Shown here piece by piece: positions 8,392 through 48,709 of a stretch of 64,000 nucleotides of DNA (its first letter is position 1; the number at the start of each line of letters is the position of its first letter). The DNA is taken from positions 2,538,001 to 2,602,000 of the forward strand of contig NZ_CP011390.1 of NCBI RefSeq assembly GCF_001644645.1. Direction: 5' to 3'. The DNA comes from Flavisolibacter tropicus (GTDB lineage Bacteria > Bacteroidota > Bacteroidia > Chitinophagales > Chitinophagaceae). The notes beneath the pieces are model-generated. The model had not been told where the DNA came from, made no database searches, and worked only from the letters and a program-made list of their open reading frames with translations. The position numbers and the translations under genes are program-made.

Positions 8392-9417
8392 TTACCAGAC
8401 ATTCCTTGGACAAGTGTCACCATACTTATTGCCTAGTAAAAATCCAAGCACTAATTCATGAGTACCGTTTGACACCGAATTCAGTGGTGTATTCGCAATA
8501 TCATAAGCGTAACTTATATTAAATGTGTTGCCCACATTTAATCCAACCATGGCAGCATAGCCATCGTGTAACCGATAACTGCCTCCTATCCATAAAAGGT
8601 CATGATATTGTAGTTTGCAATTGATATCAAATTGAGGCATTGTTGGAGACCCCGGCACCAATTTGAACATTACAGAAGGTAAGGCATTAATGTCTTCATT
8701 CAATAAAAAGCGATAACCAGCAGTGGCAAAGAAATGTGGTACTAAGTGAACACCATATTTATCATTATCTACGAAAGAAACTTTTTGTGGTAGTATTTGT
8801 TGTGCACTTACACCTACAAAGTAATCGGCCGAATAAAGCCAAAGGCCGGCCCCTATGTCTGGTCGCAGCCGACTGACTATTCCGCCGTTAGCCAAAGCCG
8901 GGTCAGATGGATTTTCGGTCTTAGCCTGTGACACATTAAAGCTGATGTTTGTAACACCTCCCGAAAAGCCGGCCGATAAATTTGTTGTAGGTGATAAGCC
9001 TACATGATAAGCATAAGTAGCCGCCAAAGAAGTTCGATTATACAAACCGGTCTTGTCATTGATTAACGTAAAGCCCACACCATGGTGTGGTTCAGAAGCT
9101 GTATAGTTCTCCCAATAGGAGTTCCCTCTGGGGTTTTCGCCGGGCACCTGAAAAGATGTTGCAGATGTTTTATAATCCTTTTTACCAATAGGAGCATGCA
9201 AAGAAATATAGGCTGTCTTTGGAGCGCCATTTAATCCAACCCATTGATCCCTTCCACTAATTTTAAGATCCGTGTAATTTTCGATACCCGAAAGTGCAGG
9301 ATTTAAAATATAGTTGTTTAAAATATACTGTGTATAATGAGGTCGCTGCTGTGCAAAAGCCAGCTGCGTAAATAAGCATAAGCCATAAAAAAGGATCCAG
9401 GTCTTTTTCATAATCAT
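8392..9417 (-). CDS. PorP/SprF family outer-membrane protein
   Basis: A 341-residue outer-membrane beta-barrel of the PorP/SprF family, linked to type IX secretion and to anchoring of large surface proteins. Seen: a signal peptide (WILFYGLCLFTQLAFAQQ), the family-typical opening HYTQYILNNYILNPALSGIENYTDLKI, then alternating strand patterns and GVGFTLINDKTGLYNRT. The start overlaps the stop of the preceding giant gene (TAATG); a second ATG six bases downstream is equally possible. The giant-protein/PorP pair is a common arrangement in this phylum, with the PorP partner thought to help present its neighbour. Confidence 0.9.
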   Translation of the reverse strand: MIMKKTWILFYGLCLFTQLAFAQQRPHYTQYILNNYILNPALSGIENYTDLKISGRDQWVGLNGAPKTAYISLHAPIGKKDYKTSATSFQVPGENPRGNSYWENYTASEPHHGVGFTLINDKTGLYNRTSLAATYAYHVGLSPTTNLSAGFSGGVTNISFNVSQAKTENPSDPALANGGIVSRLRPDIGAGLWLYSADYFVGVSAQQILPQKVSFVDNDKYGVHLVPHFFATAGYRFLLNEDINALPSVMFKLVPGSPTMPQFDINCKLQYHDLLWIGGSYRLHDGYAAMVGLNVGNTFNISYAYDIANTPLNSVSNGTHELVLGFLLGNKYGDTCPRNVW

Positions 9418-19920: not shown

Positions 19921-22395
19921 TTACGCAACAGGCAGCAATATCTTAAAAGTAGCGCCTTCACCTGGTTGGCTTTCTGCCCATATAAACCCATTATGGTTTT
20001 CAATCACCTTACGTACGATGGAGAGCCCCACACCAGTGCCCTTGTATTCGGCCATACCATGCAGGCGAGTAAAGACATTAAAAATACGCTCGGCATCAGC
20101 CTGCTCAAAACCAATGCCATTATCCTTGACCGTTACCTGGTAGTAGTTTTTGGATTGTTCTTCCCCATTAAGTTGCAAACCGGCATCACTGCCTTTCACC
20201 TGCTTGCACTGGATGTTTATGACTGGTGACACATTGGGCCTGCTATATTTTAAGGCATTGCCGATCAGGTTCTGAAAGGCCTGCTGCAACTGGCGTCGAT
20301 GACCAGTAATGGTAAATAGCTGCTCTACATTGATAGTGGCCTTTTTTTGTTCAATTTGAAGATCCAGGTCATTGAGTACTTGTTCCATCAACTGATTCAT
20401 ATCTACCGTTTCCGCCAAAATAGCGCTTTGACTAACCTCTGAATACGTCAACAGATCATCGATGAGTGTACTCATGCGCTTAGAGGCTAACTCCATACGC
20501 TGGAGATACTGCTTTTCATTTTCGGTCAGTCGCTCTCCTAGGCTAGCCTTTAGGCGGTCTGCAAAAACATGGATCTTACGGGTAGGTTCTTTCAGGTCAT
20601 GCGATGCGGCATAGGCAAATTCTTCCAGGTTTTTGTTTGATCGCCGCAGGTCTTCCACTGTCCGTTCTAACTGCAATTGTGCTTCCTTAATAGGTGTCAC
20701 ATCTGTAAAAACATGTATCAGGTGATCATCATCCAGCTTAGAAACGGTCAGCTCCAACCACCTGCCTGTAGACTCCATCTGGTATTGGGTCATAAAGGGC
20801 TCGCCTGTTTGTAGCGTTTTTACACACATCTGGTAGTAGGCTGAATCAATAATATGGGGCTCTATTTCAGTGGCTCGCTTTGACAAATAAAACTCTTTTG
20901 GCAACCCAATATATTTGATGGCTGCATCATTGGCCAGAATGGTGATGGCGTCTATTACTTTGCCATTATCATCCCGGCAAATACGACTTACAGAAATACC
21001 GTTAGACGAGTTTTTCAATATATTATCTAATAGGTTCCGCTGCTCTTCCATTTGAATAGAAGCCGCTTTTTTTTCTGTAATGTCTTCTGTAGAAACCACT
21101 ACAGTATCCTTATCAATTGGAACAATGACATACCTGTACCAATTGTCTATGTTCTGGGCAACAAAATGGGTTTCATCTCGGAAAGTTTCACCTGTTTTCA
21201 AAAGTTTGCAGAACAATTCAAAAAAGCCATTACTCCTATTTTCAGGAATCAAAGCAAGCATATTTGAACCTATTACCTCCTGCACTTTTCGATTAAGCAA
21301 TTGGGCTATGTGATTATTAACAAACAGGTATTTAAAATCGGTAATCTCTCCTACTGCGTTCCGTACAGCCTTTAGGGCATAGATCCCGTCCATAGAAGAC
21401 TCCAGAACGTTAGCCATAAATGTTTTCTGCTCTTCCAGATCGGCCGTTCTTTCCGCCACGCGTTGTTGTAGAGTAGCTTCGCTTTCTTCTACTTTTCGGC
21501 GGGCCACTACCTGTTCTGTAACATCAGTACCTACAGCTAAAATACCAGAGATAGTACCATCTGCTTCCCTAAACGGCTCATAAACAAAATTGAGGTAAAA
21601 GGTTTCCATCTTGCCTTGCCGGAGTAGCTGCACAGGCCGTTCGCTGGCAGTAAAGGCTTGCCCTGTAGTATAAACTTGCAACAGCAGTTCCTCTAGCCCT
21701 TGGTGGCGAACTTCAGGCAACGCATCAAAAACGGGTCTGTGCAGCACCTCTTCCTGACTGTGGCCCCAAAGTTCGCAAATGCGTTCATTGGCAATTTCTA
21801 CTACAAAAGAAGGCCCTTTTAGAATACTCATGGCTACCGGCGATTGCAAAATAGTAGCGCGCAAATGGCGTTCACTTTGTTGAACCTTACGAGAGGCCAG
21901 TACTTTTTCAGTCGTTTCAATACAGGCACAAAACAAGCCGCCAACTGAACCAGACTCATCCAAAATAGGACTATAAGAAAAGGTAAAATAGGTTTCTTCA
22001 ATATAACCATGGCGGTTGATATATAGTAATTGATCGTCTGACCAGGTAGCTTTACCACTAAACACTGAATCGACTAGCGGAGACAAGTCCTTCCAGATTT
22101 CAGCCCAGCCTTTACGTCCAGATTTACCCAATAGGTCAGGATGTTTTTCACCGGCAATGATGCGGTAGGAATCGTTATAAAAAGTGGTTAGATCCTTTCC
22201 CCACCAAACAAACATGGGGAACTGGGAGTTTAATAACAGATTTACTGACGTACGTAGACTTTGTGGCCAGGTGTCTGGGGTACCTACCACGGTAGTGTTC
22301 CAGTCTTTTTTTCGCATCAGGGCACCCATTTCTCCGCCATCACCCAAAAAAGCCAAAGGCCGCACGTTGTCCATTATCATGTTGTTTGTGGTCAA
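19921..22395 (-). CDS. Multi-PAS sensor histidine kinase
   Basis: An 824-residue cytoplasmic kinase without membrane spans. Four PAS-type modules follow one another: about residues 30-150 (MFVWWGKDLTTFYNDSYR), 170-290 (FVVEIANERICELWGHSQEEVL), 320-440 and 450-570, with a coiled linker (EESEATLQQRVAERTADLEEQ). The kinase core has the H-box EEFAYAASHDLKEPTRKIHVF, N-box FQNLIGNALKYSRP and G-boxes VKDNGIGFEQ and GTGVGLSIVRKV. The C-terminal 80 residues are nearly the same as those of the kinase at 47147-48709. No receiver domain or partner regulator lies next to it. It probably senses redox state or a small ligand, but that is unproven. Confidence 0.88.
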   Translation of the reverse strand: MTTNNMIMDNVRPLAFLGDGGEMGALMRKKDWNTTVVGTPDTWPQSLRTSVNLLLNSQFPMFVWWGKDLTTFYNDSYRIIAGEKHPDLLGKSGRKGWAEIWKDLSPLVDSVFSGKATWSDDQLLYINRHGYIEETYFTFSYSPILDESGSVGGLFCACIETTEKVLASRKVQQSERHLRATILQSPVAMSILKGPSFVVEIANERICELWGHSQEEVLHRPVFDALPEVRHQGLEELLLQVYTTGQAFTASERPVQLLRQGKMETFYLNFVYEPFREADGTISGILAVGTDVTEQVVARRKVEESEATLQQRVAERTADLEEQKTFMANVLESSMDGIYALKAVRNAVGEITDFKYLFVNNHIAQLLNRKVQEVIGSNMLALIPENRSNGFFELFCKLLKTGETFRDETHFVAQNIDNWYRYVIVPIDKDTVVVSTEDITEKKAASIQMEEQRNLLDNILKNSSNGISVSRICRDDNGKVIDAITILANDAAIKYIGLPKEFYLSKRATEIEPHIIDSAYYQMCVKTLQTGEPFMTQYQMESTGRWLELTVSKLDDDHLIHVFTDVTPIKEAQLQLERTVEDLRRSNKNLEEFAYAASHDLKEPTRKIHVFADRLKASLGERLTENEKQYLQRMELASKRMSTLIDDLLTYSEVSQSAILAETVDMNQLMEQVLNDLDLQIEQKKATINVEQLFTITGHRRQLQQAFQNLIGNALKYSRPNVSPVINIQCKQVKGSDAGLQLNGEEQSKNYYQVTVKDNGIGFEQADAERIFNVFTRLHGMAEYKGTGVGLSIVRKVIENHNGFIWAESQPGEGATFKILLPVA

Positions 22396-24165: not shown

Positions 24166-24248
24166 GTGAATGATCTTTTTATAGCATTCACGAGTTCACC
24201 TGTTTACAAGTTTAAAAGCTCCAAGAAACGAACAGGTGAACTCGTGAA
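24166..24248 (+). repeat. Overlapping alternative hairpins between the GH109 gene and the kinase gene
   Basis: An 18-base perfect inverted repeat (24187-24204 and 24231-24248, 26-base spacer) overlaps a second, 7-base stem (24166-24172 with 24185-24191). The two share 24187-24191 and so cannot form together. The right arm contains GTGAACTCGTGAACT, itself a short tandem repeat. It ends 12 bases before the kinase start. Confidence 0.6.
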
Positions 24249-35079: not shown

Positions 35080-35168
35080 CTACAAATAGAATAAGGTTAC
35101 TATTTTGCTACTTGTAGGCGCCATTAGCTTTAGAAGAAGCGGTTGGGGCAGGAAGACACCATTTCCTG
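35080..35168 (-). promoter_or_regulatory. Fluoride riboswitch (crcB motif) with expression-platform hairpin
   Basis: Read on the minus strand from 35168: P1 stem CAGGAA/TTCCTG with the 8-base loop ATGGTGTC, then a short linker, a P3 stem GCTT/AAGC, and the 3' signature GCTAATGGCGCCTAC. The loop GGTGT can pair with GCGCC in the signature, giving the class pseudoknot with two G.U pairs. A 10-base hairpin (arms 35080-35089 and 35108-35117) follows, ends one base before the CLC ATG, and shares four bases (35114-35117) with the aptamer. Ligand binding would therefore free the start region: an ON switch by translation control is the likely mode. Confidence 0.85.
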
Positions 35169-35330
35169 TATATAGCAAATATAACGTTTAATACCTACTT
35201 GCTCCATGTGGGTATCCCAATCGGTGTATAGTGAGGCGGTTTAGGAACTTAGCAGCATATCCTCTATCAAGACGTGGAGCGTAGAGAACCCCTGTTTATA
35301 CAAAATACCATTTTTGCCAAATGGGCGAAT

Positions 35331-39661: not shown

Positions 39662-40501
39662 TTAAAGACCCACTTTTTGTATGGTAGCCGCACCAGTTGT
39701 TCCTGCATTGGAAATAAACAACTCACCCTCCGGCGAAAAAGCCAAACCTTCCGCATGCGGTAAATTTGAGCGGCTATACGTGTACATCTTTTTCATTTGC
39801 CCTTTTTCATCCATCACTAACAACTTTGGATCAGAGCCTTGCAGTATATAGATATCGTTAGTTATAGGATGTATCTCTATTGCAGAAGGCAGAAAAGCAT
39901 TATCCTTGCCTTTTAGGCTACAAAATATGGGATCAGCCAGGTTGATCTTTACAACAGGTTTAGCAACCAGCTTTCTGGACTTCAAATCAAATGCATAAAC
40001 ACCTTTGCACTGACGATTACGGGGCAAATTCCCTTTTGTAACCAGCAGCAGGCGGTCGTTCTTTTTATCATAGGTAAGGCCTTCCACATTGTTCTTCGCC
40101 GTTAGTGGTATGTCGTATTGCTTCACTACAGGCGTAGCACCTTCATAATCCTGCACCTCATAGAGGGTACCATCGCTTTGCACCACATAGGCCGACGTTC
40201 CAGCAATAGCAATACCTTCATAATTACCAGCTTTAGCAAAAGGTATCTCCTTTTCTATTTTATTGTCTGTGGTATTATAAATAAAAATAGAACCCAACCT
40301 ATCCTGTATACAGGCAAACCGGTTATTGCCTAAATATTTAATTCCAGAAACTTCTTTTAATATGGCGGGCAGCTCCCATTTACTTAAGCCATTTATTGTA
40401 TGACCAACATTACTAATGCCAGGTGCAGGAGAGGCTTGTGCTACATTGTTTCCCAAAAGCATCCCTATGAATAGTACTGGTATGATGAATACTTTTTTCA
40501 T
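39662..40501 (-). CDS. SdiA-regulated-type beta-propeller protein, copy 1
   Basis: 279 residues, exported (MKKVFIIPVLFIGMLLGNNVAQA). The body is a beta-propeller of the SdiA-regulated/phytase-like group: KEVSGIKYLGNNRFACIQD, GNYEGIAIAGTSAYVVQSDG, NNVEGLTYDKKNDRLLLVTKG, PSAIEIHPITNDIYIL, LPHAEGLAFSPEGELFISNAG. The repeated EG(I/L) turns may bind calcium, as in related propellers. Molecular role unknown. A clear paralogue lies at 42016-42969. Confidence 0.8.
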   Translation of the reverse strand: MKKVFIIPVLFIGMLLGNNVAQASPAPGISNVGHTINGLSKWELPAILKEVSGIKYLGNNRFACIQDRLGSIFIYNTTDNKIEKEIPFAKAGNYEGIAIAGTSAYVVQSDGTLYEVQDYEGATPVVKQYDIPLTAKNNVEGLTYDKKNDRLLLVTKGNLPRNRQCKGVYAFDLKSRKLVAKPVVKINLADPIFCSLKGKDNAFLPSAIEIHPITNDIYILQGSDPKLLVMDEKGQMKKMYTYSRSNLPHAEGLAFSPEGELFISNAGTTGAATIQKVGL

Positions 40502-41025
40502 AACTTCTTAGGTTTACAATTACAAAATCGGAGTAGTAGGAGGCTTGTGCTACCTCATCAAATAGTTATGCTAAATAGTTCTCTTAATTCTATGCTGAAC
40601 GATCATTGGTAGAATTGATCTCAGCTATGCAGTTGCCATTATCCAATACAAAATTAACGCACCTAATTTTTTTATCCTCTCCGCCTGCCCACATTTAACC
40701 CTATGTTTCAATTTTTATAACAATACAATTAGCTTTTACTTTAGACTCTTGCCTTATGTGAAGGATGAGATACAGTTATGATCCCAGCTTATGAACTGAG
40801 CTGTGAAATGTAGAGGTGAAGCCTATGGAAGACCAGTAATAAGACGCTATGCACCCTATTGCACAGTAGAAGTATACTCAGTGACAATAACCTTCTCTAT
40901 TTGCGGCTAATAGAGCCTTTAAATAGAGAAGACAGCGAAGACGCTGCCATTCAAATAAAAGGCCCCAGCGAGGAGGCTGAGACCAGCGAACTATAATTTG
41001 ATTAGGCTTTAGGGGAATGATTTAA
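40502..41025. other. Gap with one inverted repeat
   Basis: 524 bases without a supportable gene. CTTCTCTATTT (40892-40902) and AAATAGAGAAG (40921-40931) form a perfect 11-base inverted repeat with an 18-base loop. The rest shows nothing recognisable. Confidence 0.4.
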
Positions 41026-41342
41026 TCAGCTTTTATCCTCTTCAATAACCTGGTGAATTCGTTTTATTATTTGCTGCATATCACCATTTGTAATAAAAAC
41101 CCCGTTTTCCGAAAAATCATATTCACCTAGAGAATTTAAACTTATCTGGGGCTTCTCAGGATGATAAGCTTGCCAGTTGGAAATCAAAGTTTTTACGCCG
41201 TTGTTAGTGTTCCTCTTGGCCTTGTGCTGCGGCTGCACCAACAACGGCGTACAATCATCCACAACGTTATAAGGATTCCTAATGCCCCACCAATTAGCAG
41301 GTAAAGACCTAACGCTCTAAGCTTTGATTGCAACTTTTTCAT
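41026..41342 (-). pseudogene. Small membrane-protein gene interrupted by a palindromic insert
   Basis: The gene starts at the ATG at 41342 with a membrane anchor (LGLYLLIGGALGILITLWMIV) and is then shifted out of frame by the palindrome at 41194-41251, ending in a stop at 41193. Beyond it a second frame reads KTLISNWQAYHPEKPQISLN to a stop at 41026, ending QQIIKRIHQVIEEDKS. Removing 56 bases (leaving one TA) joins WMIV directly to KTLISNW and restores a single frame of 86 codons. I do not recognise the family. The downstream half alone is open from a GTG at 41262. Confidence 0.6.
41194..41251 (-). mobile_element. Palindromic insert with TA at both ends (MITE-like)
   Basis: Arms 41194-41209 and 41236-41251, 16 bases each, pair fully on the minus strand with one G.U. 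Both outer ends are TA, as expected from target-site duplication of a TA dinucleotide. The core CCGTTG...CAACGG matches the dispersed repeat family and 12 bases (GTTGGTGCAGCC) are identical to copy F. No coding capacity. Mobility is inferred from the interrupted gene. Confidence 0.6.
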
Positions 41343-42015
41343 AAGGGTACTTATATTATTAGCAAGGTTAAATAACGTTCCGGTTAACGCTCAAATATAT
41401 TCACTAATACTGGCCTTGGTATGCTATGATACTAAGACACAAGTACCCAATTGCACATAAGCCAGTCCGGCATACTTCCGCTAGAAGGGGGATTTGTTCT
41501 ACTCCCTCACAATGCCCCCTGTTGCAATTGGACGACCTATTTTTCTACCCTAAACCATGTCCCATCGCCGCCTTTTCTTCGGGGCTCCTTCGGGAATTGT
41601 TCGAGACTTCTTCGAAGCTGCCCGAAGAAGTCTCGAAGAAACCTCGAACAAGCCTCGAAGCAGTCCCTATGCTGAGGCGAAAATGAGACGAAGCAGAGTA
41701 CAGCCATTACTTATACTGACGCAAGTACCCATCCGCATATGAGCGATCCCTGCATACTTACGCCTATTGGAGAGGTAGGCGGGTTCTTGAGCCACACCGT
41801 ACATACCTAGCTGGGTTTTATTTCTGAGAATGATAAAGGAGCAGCGAATAGCATATACACGGGAGCGTTAGCTATTTAGGTTCTACCAGTTAATTATCCT
41901 GTCCCAGTCTACACACCATCTATTGCTTTAGACACAGTGCTTGTAACCTAAAAGATATCGATCAACGCTTTGCGTATAACAACAATAACAAAAAAGGCAA
42001 ACCTATTAAACCTAC
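41343..42015. other. Gene-free debris region with direct repeats and a strong hairpin
   Basis: About 670 bases. Two degenerate direct repeats (about 41437-41491 and 41719-41773) begin with AC-CAAGTACCCA and include GCATACTT-CGC; about three quarters of positions agree over 45 bases. Between them lies a nested inverted repeat: 13-base exact arms 41602-41614 and 41623-41635 (CGAGACTTCTTCG and its complement), enclosed by TTGTTCGAG (41597-41605) and CTCGAACAA (41643-41651). Open frames here are short and overlap the repeats, so I call no gene. Confidence 0.5.
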
Positions 42016-42969
42016 TTACTGAACTCCGTTTATGTTTACTTTGACAATGCTACCCGTACCGGTTTTTCCCTCGCTTGAAATCATCAACTCCCCTTCAGGA
42101 GTAAACGCTACTCCTTCAGGCTGAGGAAACTGGGTTTCATCTAGTGAGAGTAGGTTTTTCTTCTTTCCTTCCGCATCCATAATCAACAGTTTAGGCTTTG
42201 CTCCATCAGTAATGTAAATATCACCCGTCAGGGGATGAATGTCTAAATCGGAGGGTTCTATCTTTTGCTTGCTTTTAATATCTTTCCATATCTCATGGGT
42301 GAGATCAATCTTCAAAACAGGTGTTTCATTTAATTTTTTATTGGCGAGATCAAAGGCATAAATACCTTTATATTCCGAGGTGTTTGGCTCATTTCCTTTA
42401 ATAGCTAATAATAACCGGTTGTTCTTTTGATCATAGCATAAGCCTTCTACATCCTGTTTGGCTGTTAGGTGGGTTTGATGTTCTACCACAGTTGGCTTAT
42501 TGTTATAGTTTGCCACTTCATATAATCGCCCATCAGCACGAAGTACATAAGCTGTATTACCGGCAATGGCAATTCCTTCATAATCGCCTACTGCGGCAAA
42601 TGGTATTTCTTTTTCTATGCTTTGGCTTTGTGTATTATAGATATAGATCTTTCCCTCTTCATCCTCCACGCAGGCAAAGCGGGCTGCATCAACGTAGGCA
42701 ATACCGGAAATCTCTTTCAACTTGGCAGGCATATTCCACTTCTGCGCAACAGCTAAAGTAGGGTTTGCTTTTGTCCTTTGGTTTTGATCTGCAGTATTAC
42801 TTTCAGCTGCACTTTGCACCTGGGGTGCCGCTGTTTTTCTAGCTACCATGGATCTTATCTCATCCTTAAATGGCACAGTGGCAAAGGCCAGCAAAGCCAC
42901 TATTCCAATTACGGTAAAAGCGATCCGATCTGCTTTGGGAAGCATTGCCTGCTTTGATTCTGGACGCAT
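42016..42969 (-). CDS. SdiA-regulated-type beta-propeller protein, copy 2 (membrane-anchored)
   Basis: 317 residues. An N-terminal membrane anchor (IAFTVIGIVALLAFATVPF) and a polar linker replace the cleavable signal of copy 1. The propeller matches copy 1 block by block: LKEISGIAYVDAARFACVED, GDYEGIAIAGNTAYVLRADG, QDVEGLCYDQKNNRLLLAIKG, PSDLDIHPLTGDIYIT, FPQPEGVAFTPEGELMISSEG. A duplication with different tethering is the simplest reading. Biochemical role unknown. Confidence 0.8.
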   Translation of the reverse strand: MRPESKQAMLPKADRIAFTVIGIVALLAFATVPFKDEIRSMVARKTAAPQVQSAAESNTADQNQRTKANPTLAVAQKWNMPAKLKEISGIAYVDAARFACVEDEEGKIYIYNTQSQSIEKEIPFAAVGDYEGIAIAGNTAYVLRADGRLYEVANYNNKPTVVEHQTHLTAKQDVEGLCYDQKNNRLLLAIKGNEPNTSEYKGIYAFDLANKKLNETPVLKIDLTHEIWKDIKSKQKIEPSDLDIHPLTGDIYITDGAKPKLLIMDAEGKKKNLLSLDETQFPQPEGVAFTPEGELMISSEGKTGTGSIVKVNINGVQ

Positions 42970-47146: not shown

Positions 47147-48709
47147 TTAGACCGCTGGCAATAAAATTTTAAACGTTGTTCCTTCACCTGGTTTACTTTC
47201 TGCCCACACATATCCATTATGGTTTTCTGCCACCTTTCTTACAATAGAGAGGCCAACACCGGTTCCTTTGTATTCAGCCATACCATGCAGGCGGGTAAAG
47301 ACATTGAATATGCGTTCAGCATCGGCTTGCTCAAAACCAATCCCATTATCACGCACTTCAATTAAATGATACGCTTTACTTTCTTCTTCTTCAGACAGGT
47401 GTAAGGCCGTATCGCTTCCTTTTATACGTGTAGATGAAAGCTTAATTACTGGCGTGCTATCTGACTTGCTGTATTTCAGCGAATTGCCAATGAGGTTTTC
47501 AAATAACTGTTGCAGCTGCAGCCTATTTCCTTTTATAACAGGCAAAGCATCAATTATTATTTTGGCATCCTTTTCTTCAATACTCAATTCCAGATCTTCC
47601 AATACCATTGGCAATGTTTTATTAAGATCTACCACCTCTTCATGACTTACGCCTCGTGAAATATGGGAATACATCAGCAGATCATCAATGAGGATGCCCA
47701 TTCTCTTAGCTCCCGTTTCCAGGCGATCAAAATAGCGCAGGTCTTCATCCTGTAGCTTTTCTGCAAGCCGCTCTCTTAACCGTTCCGTAAAAAAATGGAT
47801 CTTCCGGATAGGTTCTTTCAGGTCATGAGAAGCTGCATAAGTAAATTGCTCCAATTCTTCATTTTTCCGGCTCAGTTCAAGAGTTCGTTCCTTTACCTTA
47901 TGCTCCAGCTCTGCATTGGCCTTTGAAAGAAATTGCTCAGCTTTCCTTTTTTCAGTAACATCTAAAGTAAAGCAGCGGGTATGCACAAAATTCCCATCTT
48001 CCCAAAGAACATTTGAGTTGATAACTACATTCCGGATTGTACCATCCTTACAGCGCAGCAACGCTTCATATTGGTTTAGTGTTTCATTTCGGGAAAGACG
48101 TGTAAGAATATCATCAATGATTGGTCGGTCTGCATGAAATTCAGCAATATGATGACCAATATATTCTTCTTCCGTATAGCCTAACAATTGCAGCTCTGCT
48201 TTATTAGCCCAAACAATAATACCATTACTGTCTACCCAATGCAGGCCTACAGTAGCATTATCAAAATAATCCTGGAGCTCTTTGGCTTTTTTCTGTAGCT
48301 CAACCTCCATTTCTCTTTTCTCTGTTATGTCGCTTACTAAAACCATTAAGCCCCCAACTATTCCATCATTGTCAATGTCTGGTATGTATTTAAGCTGCAC
48401 ATAACGTATTCCTTTTTTATAAGGAACTTCTGCTTCAAAATCTAACGCATTGCCGGCTAGTGCTGACTGTATTTTATCTTTAAGGATTTCAATGGCAGCT
48501 GCTCCCATCACCTCGGCAAAGGGTTTCCCAATAATATCTTTCTGTGCTAATTCAAGCCAGCCCTCACAAGCCTTGTTGGCATATTGATAACACAGCTCAT
48601 TATCAATATAATAAGTAGGAATGGGTGATATATCTACAAGACGGTTTCTAATATCTTCCTGGGACTTAGATAACAGAATAGCTTCCGTTATTGGATTTCG
48701 CGTTTGCAT
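47147..48709 (-). CDS. PAS sensor histidine kinase (paralogue of 19921-22395)
   Basis: 520 residues, soluble. Two PAS modules: about residues 25-135 (ISPIPTYYIDNELCYQYANKACEGW) and 150-265 (ATVGLHWVDSNGIIVWANKAELQLLGYTEEE), then a coiled segment (KANAELEHKVKERTLELSRKNEEL) and a kinase core with EQFTYAASHDLKEPIRKIHFF, FENLIGNSLKYSKS, VRDNGIGFEQ and GTGVGLSIVRKVAENHNG. The last 80 residues are nearly identical to the larger multi-PAS kinase. No receiver partner adjoins it. A small open frame lies 53 bases upstream. Confidence 0.88.
   Translation of the reverse strand: MQTRNPITEAILLSKSQEDIRNRLVDISPIPTYYIDNELCYQYANKACEGWLELAQKDIIGKPFAEVMGAAAIEILKDKIQSALAGNALDFEAEVPYKKGIRYVQLKYIPDIDNDGIVGGLMVLVSDITEKREMEVELQKKAKELQDYFDNATVGLHWVDSNGIIVWANKAELQLLGYTEEEYIGHHIAEFHADRPIIDDILTRLSRNETLNQYEALLRCKDGTIRNVVINSNVLWEDGNFVHTRCFTLDVTEKRKAEQFLSKANAELEHKVKERTLELSRKNEELEQFTYAASHDLKEPIRKIHFFTERLRERLAEKLQDEDLRYFDRLETGAKRMGILIDDLLMYSHISRGVSHEEVVDLNKTLPMVLEDLELSIEEKDAKIIIDALPVIKGNRLQLQQLFENLIGNSLKYSKSDSTPVIKLSSTRIKGSDTALHLSEEEESKAYHLIEVRDNGIGFEQADAERIFNVFTRLHGMAEYKGTGVGLSIVRKVAENHNGYVWAESKPGEGTTFKILLPAV

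Follow-up and report, generated by a model that had tools for sequence, protein, structure and literature searches.

Introduction

The systems closest to the locus described here are the REP palindromes and the RAYT (TnpA-REP) proteins associated with them. In the Bacteroidetes, TnpA-REP subclass 2.6 is accompanied by atypical palindromes that lack GT[AG]G, and its proteins carry the motifs NH[LIV]H, WQ, YIH[QN]NP and SS (Quentin et al. 2018, PMC6006769). The text of the same paper treats double-foot REPs, described for subclass 2.4 and with GT[AG]G feet, and suggests that they could arise when the centre of an inverted REP dimer is deleted (PMC6006769). A REPIN is an inverted REP doublet with a spacer, from which an inter-REP deletion gives a long palindrome and a single REP (Bertels and Rainey 2011, PMC3116915), and REPs within genes have been reported, as have RAYT-like genes bordered by inverted repeats (2013, PMC3733652). 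Neither collapsed REPINs nor double-foot REPs are new to the literature. Correia-type and IS630-type MITEs are also short palindromic elements, flanked by TA; their transposase chemistry differs from that of the RAYT system.

Here, we analyzed a palindrome from Flavisolibacter tropicus, lying in a stretch of 64,000 nucleotides that we refer to as the window. A preliminary description had reported a 58-base palindrome with TA ends at 41194–41251 and read it as a transposed miniature element, with a TA target duplication, interrupting an 86-codon gene. The palindrome and its TA termini were borne out. The element is similar to the double-foot REPs of Quentin et al. 2018 in being a single hairpin bounded by a foot and its reverse complement, and differs from those in the text of PMC6006769 in its foot, TTTTACGCC. 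The REPINs of PMC3116915 have another foot sequence and another host, and, unlike these, the window copy is not a doublet. Unlike the Correia-type and IS630-type MITEs, the window element has no demonstrated TA duplication. The wider family resembles the subclass 2.6 REP/REPtron, sharing a RAYT with NHLH and SS, flanking palindromes without GT[AG]G, and dispersed copies, whereas the RAYT here has WE in place of WQ and YIHHNP in place of YIH[QN]NP.

Results

Architecture of the palindrome

The palindrome (41194–41251, assigned to neither strand) opens with TACGCC and closes with GGCGTA, so that a single hairpin lies between a foot and its reverse complement, and was annotated as a double-foot REP from the REP family alignment and the collapse model described below. 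On the plus strand, the left foot TTTTTACGCC (41190–41199), which is kept across the REP family, leads into the 5′ stem arm GTTGTTAGTG (41200–41209), defined by the alignment and the fold. The stem encloses a 26-base loop, and its 3′ arm CACCAACAAC (41236–41245, plus strand) would serve as the direct repeat in a REPIN collapse. The second, inverted foot GGCGTA (41246–41251, plus strand) has its usual place at the far end of a REPIN, and GGCG follows the 3′ arm in the window copy alone, in none of the 23 other aligned copies. Having one hairpin, the window copy does not show the two inverted REPs and spacer of a REPIN. The fold of a 66-base stretch gave z-scores against shuffles of -3.57 on the plus strand and -3.59 on the minus strand.

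A dispersed repeat family

A blastn search with the palindrome returned 24 matches in the genome of origin (G000), itself included. The covariance model built from these copies raised the count to at least 38 in that genome, a lower bound since 150 of the 2,356 first-look candidates were scored, and matched 12 of the 18 genomes of the genus, F. tropicus included. The foot TTTTACGCC and the stem GTTGTTGGTG/CACCAACAAC recur across the aligned copies, and their loops resemble one another in sequence. REPs canonically have a GT[AG]G foot; here TTTTACGCC takes its place, and no family with this foot is described in the literature passages and listings examined by text search. Across both strands of the 64-kb window the model matched the palindrome site alone, with the next match at E 0.47. 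The relatives lie elsewhere on the chromosome, outside the window, and not among the repeats of the window itself, to which the preliminary description had related the element.

The TA dinucleotide is part of the conserved foot. Within the 24 copies, the left-foot letters are T at -2 (22 copies), T at -1 (21), T at 0 (21) and A at +1 (21), and conserved bases run beyond the TA. The bases repeated at the palindrome edges are TAC and not TA alone (TTTTTAC-GCC...GGCG-TAC-AATC). The TA at the other end comes from inversion of the foot, TA reading the same on both strands. Given this self-complementarity and its place inside a conserved block, it provides no evidence for target duplication. A strict-pattern search of the 18 genomes gave one further double-foot copy, in G001, which has TA at its left end and lacks it at the right. 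The proposed TA target duplication is thus not supported. Target duplication is not known for Y1/HUH transposases, and a text search of PMC6006769 for target duplication returned nothing.

An empty site, which under TA duplication would read TTTTTACAATC, was also sought, the preliminary description having proposed a comparison of empty and filled sites. None was found with the flank DNA in 57 other relatives (up to 10 candidates scored in each), where all flank-DNA matches fell inside or just around the REP.

Several other features were observed in the window. The 1.5-kb spacer that holds the palindrome contains a second dispersed repeat (40933–41011), present at 5 places in the genome, of which two, 3087305 and 3089235, are close to another RAYT-like gene (3087432–3087908), and a third, CTTCG-rich palindromic family (41577–41660), found at 18 distinct genome places including its own. 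Genes with SdiA-regulated domains lie on either side of this repeat-rich spacer (39662–40501 and 42016–42969, both on the minus strand). Elsewhere, the minus strand carries a fluoride riboswitch at 35108–35175 (Rfam RF01734, scoring 49.3 bits where the threshold is 34), the 62 bases at 24187–24248 contain an inverted repeat whose perfect arm is 18 bases long, and a 194-base repeat occurs at 19931–20124 and 47157–47350 (81% identity), the pair having a second common block of 103 bases (75%) at equal spacing.

Association with RAYT genes

Inverted REPs at approximately 4015108 (plus) and 4015776 (minus), also given as 4015116 and 4015786, enclose a RAYT gene of 172 codons (4015219–4015734, minus strand) in the F. 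tropicus genome. In this genome the palindrome thus both flanks a RAYT gene and is dispersed, as a REP should be. A second pair (3187398 and 3188132) surrounds a broken relative. Similar arrangements occur in two congeners: in G003, where inverted REPs at 4079398 (plus) and 4080089 (minus) surround a RAYT gene at 4079483–4079989, and in G011, where those at 8529 (plus) and 9198 (minus) of contig C9 surround one at 8638–9135.

The RAYT protein scored 81.6 bits against NCBIfam NF047646, ‘REP-associated tyrosine transposase’ (cut-off 80), and together with 16 chosen relatives gave 17 matches out of 17 to this model at E≤0.001. The HUH histidines H56 and H58, Y132 (the tyrosine of YIHxNP) and the SS pair are invariant in these 17 sequences, and Y132 is the putative catalytic tyrosine, judging from its YIHxNP setting. 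The RAYT profile matched the E. coli TnpA-REP structure 4er8 (E 3.7e-7); the single sequence matched no solved structure at E≤1, and no Pfam family matched the RAYT query at cut-off.

The linkage between REP and RAYT is not universal. Among the 18 genomes, eight have matches to both, four to the REP alone (G001, G004, G005 and G013), one to the RAYT alone (G014) and five to neither. Good RAYT matches without a listed REP beside them were also present in G006 (C54:241500) and G015 (C22:53930). Among named RAYT relatives, 17 of 80 loci were inspected, within up to 300 bases around the gene: exact GGCGTAAA occurs at 5 of the 17, and either exact GGCGTAAA or TTTACGCC with up to one mismatch at 10, both counts being without a chance control.

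RAYT-like genes are also found in larger repeats of this genome. Three loci, G000:C1:556847-558816 (L020), L098 and L012, have repeats of 0.76–1.26 kb in common at 98–99% identity, and the piece common to L020 and L098 holds a RAYT-like gene (557027–557491 and 5393511–5393975). This suggests recent movement.

Collapse of REPINs in silico

Nine of the 24 family copies have a second foot (AACACCAACAACGGCGTAA, up to 4 mismatches in 19) 136–208 bp to the right, at 150–157 bp in seven of the nine. The best control match had 8 mismatches to the left of the copies and 6 in reversed sequence. These nine copies, with their second inverted foot, are REPINs. In eight of them, the one at 5272039 being left out, the CACCAACAAC arms form direct repeats with gaps of 94, 93, 93, 93, 93, 96, 76 and 97 bp. 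Deletion in silico between the arms converted these eight REPINs into double-foot palindromes of 56–59 bp, and the window element measures 58. The identification of the palindrome as a collapsed REPIN of the RAYT family is well supported.

The two halves of the 86-codon frame

Two minus-strand frames break at the palindrome, with the stop codon of the upstream frame lying within the left foot, and removal of 56 bases joins them into a single frame of 86 codons, confirming this part of the preliminary description. The upstream, N-terminal half (41250–41342, minus strand) comprises the first 31 codons of a membrane-protein family of approximately 170–180 residues, assigned by homology and by a DNA match to G014. 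The downstream, C-terminal half (41026–41193, minus strand) lies across the REP from it and consists of 55 codons and a stop, with coding-like codon use. When 56-base deletions were scanned over 10,261 intergenic window positions, 176 produced a frame of 86 codons or more, 73 of them at the palindrome. Such a join is thus unusual at roughly the 1–2% level, but this one was selected by eye out of the whole window. Removal of 56 bp at other copies gave at least 86 codons in 1 of 23, a count unscreened for already-open frames. Codon use as high as that of the C half occurred in 1 of 157 false frames, and 170 of 252 real segments did not exceed it. For the N half the measure carried no information, its value being reached by 153 of 645 false frames, with 27 of 458 real segments scoring equally low.

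We searched for the joined 86-residue protein in 294 genomes of the family, and 18 genomes, the F. tropicus genome included, matched at E≤0.1. The six best matches beyond it (E 9.0e-5 to 0.016) cover stretches between residues 2 and 37 and form one family, of approximately 170–180 residues with several hydrophobic stretches by eye, whose members align mutually over almost their whole length. These six rows were used for a profile, with protein starts chosen by hand, and the seventh (L233, another protein) and weaker rows were dropped. The profile found the N half at E 2.5e-9 among 1,871 open window stretches, to which the joined and C-half sequences had been added, a value that is partly circular because the joined query had itself brought in the six relatives. 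Nothing else of the family appeared in the window below E 0.17, and the family matched nothing in Pfam or NCBIfam at cut-off.

The similarity stops at the palindrome. A full-length G014 protein found its N-terminal piece alone in the F. tropicus genome (window 41253–41345, E 0.0012), and the searches turned up the remainder of the family in neither the window nor the genome. DNA similarity to G014 (54 of 76 bases) starts at 41254, the third base outside the REP, and is not carried on across the REP. The six relatives run on into sequence unlike the C half, and the covariance model found no REP in their loci (L227–L232).

The 55-residue C half gave no match at E≤0.001 in 97 other genomes, and in 394 other genomes gave weak matches at E≤0.1 in 19, against a chance expectation of approximately 39. 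Three of those inspected (L236, L238 and L244) resemble histidine kinases by eye. Searches of 5.77 billion proteins, reaching lengths of approximately 30–96 and 53–168 residues for the C half and 47–150 residues for the joined query, returned the 78-residue frame of F. tropicus alone. Imm74 was rejected as an identity for the C half, having scored 13.7 bits (E 0.071) where the cut-off is 27.1. Among the proteins of approximately 47–150 residues, the search for the 86-residue protein without its insert, also suggested in the preliminary description, revealed no relative of the joined protein beyond that frame. Since the relatives of the upstream half continue differently and nothing convincingly related to the downstream half was found, the claim of an interrupted 86-codon gene fails on homology.

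Discussion

We consider it very likely that the palindrome is a REP/RAYT double-foot element, formed by collapse of a REPIN or of a REP pair, that it lies on a rearrangement junction, and that the 86-codon join is coincidental. We place it on a junction because one side holds the head of a membrane-protein gene, and the frame on the other side does not resemble the remainder of that gene. Most likely, the REP marks a breakpoint between unrelated fragments, and the joined frame is probably a one-in-three coincidence of phase and not a restored gene. Two steps would account for the element. A REPIN (two inverted REPs, approximately 153 bp) or a REP pair would have been placed at the window locus, presumably by a Y1/HUH transposase with single-stranded DNA as its substrate. 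Deletion from one CACCAACAAC arm to its identical counterpart would then have left one hairpin with both outer feet, a step that we infer because the size and sequence of the element fit the prediction. Certain observations sit less easily with this account: collapse inside one REPIN alone leaves the unrelated flanks unexplained, the canonical GT[AG]G foot is missing, REP and RAYT do not always occur together, and no empty site was found to show insertion at this locus directly. A single deletion between the REPs of two different REPINs could have made the palindrome and, in the same event, fused the membrane-gene head to the tail of another gene. The REP alone would leave this fusion out of frame, and its exact loss would create a new 86-codon gene; we regard this version as doubtful.

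The codon use of the C half bears on several of these readings. Being coding-like, it would also suit a real gene, which counts against a breakpoint. In combination with the continuity of the frame, and with the K that follows WMIV in the joined protein, as in three of the six relatives, it would fit the clean insertion of a REP, with no deletion, into a real 86-codon gene particular to this lineage, its first 31 residues having come from the membrane family. This is unlikely, since frame agreement has a prior of one in three, the downstream half lacks relatives in the 97 genomes, its weak matches in the 394 genomes fall below chance, and its own frame stands alone among 5.77e9 proteins of the lengths reached. 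The same codon use, the TA at both ends of a 58-bp palindrome and the 86 codons obtained by removing 56 bp are what a TA-targeting miniature transposon (an IS630/Tc1-like MITE) would leave on entering a real gene for a membrane-anchored protein and duplicating its TA. As a leading reading this was discarded, because the TA lies within a conserved block and the partner of the repeat is a Y1 RAYT. The conservation reaching beyond the TA, the other double-foot copy lacking TA at the right, the joined protein having no relatives except its own 78-residue frame among 5.77 billion proteins (lengths of approximately 47–150 residues) and the N-half relatives continuing otherwise make it very improbable. 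Of the transposed miniature element first proposed, the miniature, dispersed, transposase-associated palindrome stands, and the TA duplication is not supported. The strong fold might suggest that the hairpin is mainly an RNA-level signal, a terminator or mRNA stabilizer of a local gene, and a secondary role of this kind is possible. As the main explanation it is hardly credible, since the 38 dispersed copies, the conserved foot and the RAYT linkage demand another cause.

The collapse of a REPIN or REP pair on a rearrangement junction, our preferred reading, would provide a worked case from the Bacteroidota of REPIN decay into a single long palindrome. It also carries the lesson that an inverted repeat flanked by TA on either end is an unreliable indicator of target duplication. 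If the breakpoint reading is true, RAYT-linked repeats in this lineage would join in deletions that truncate genes.
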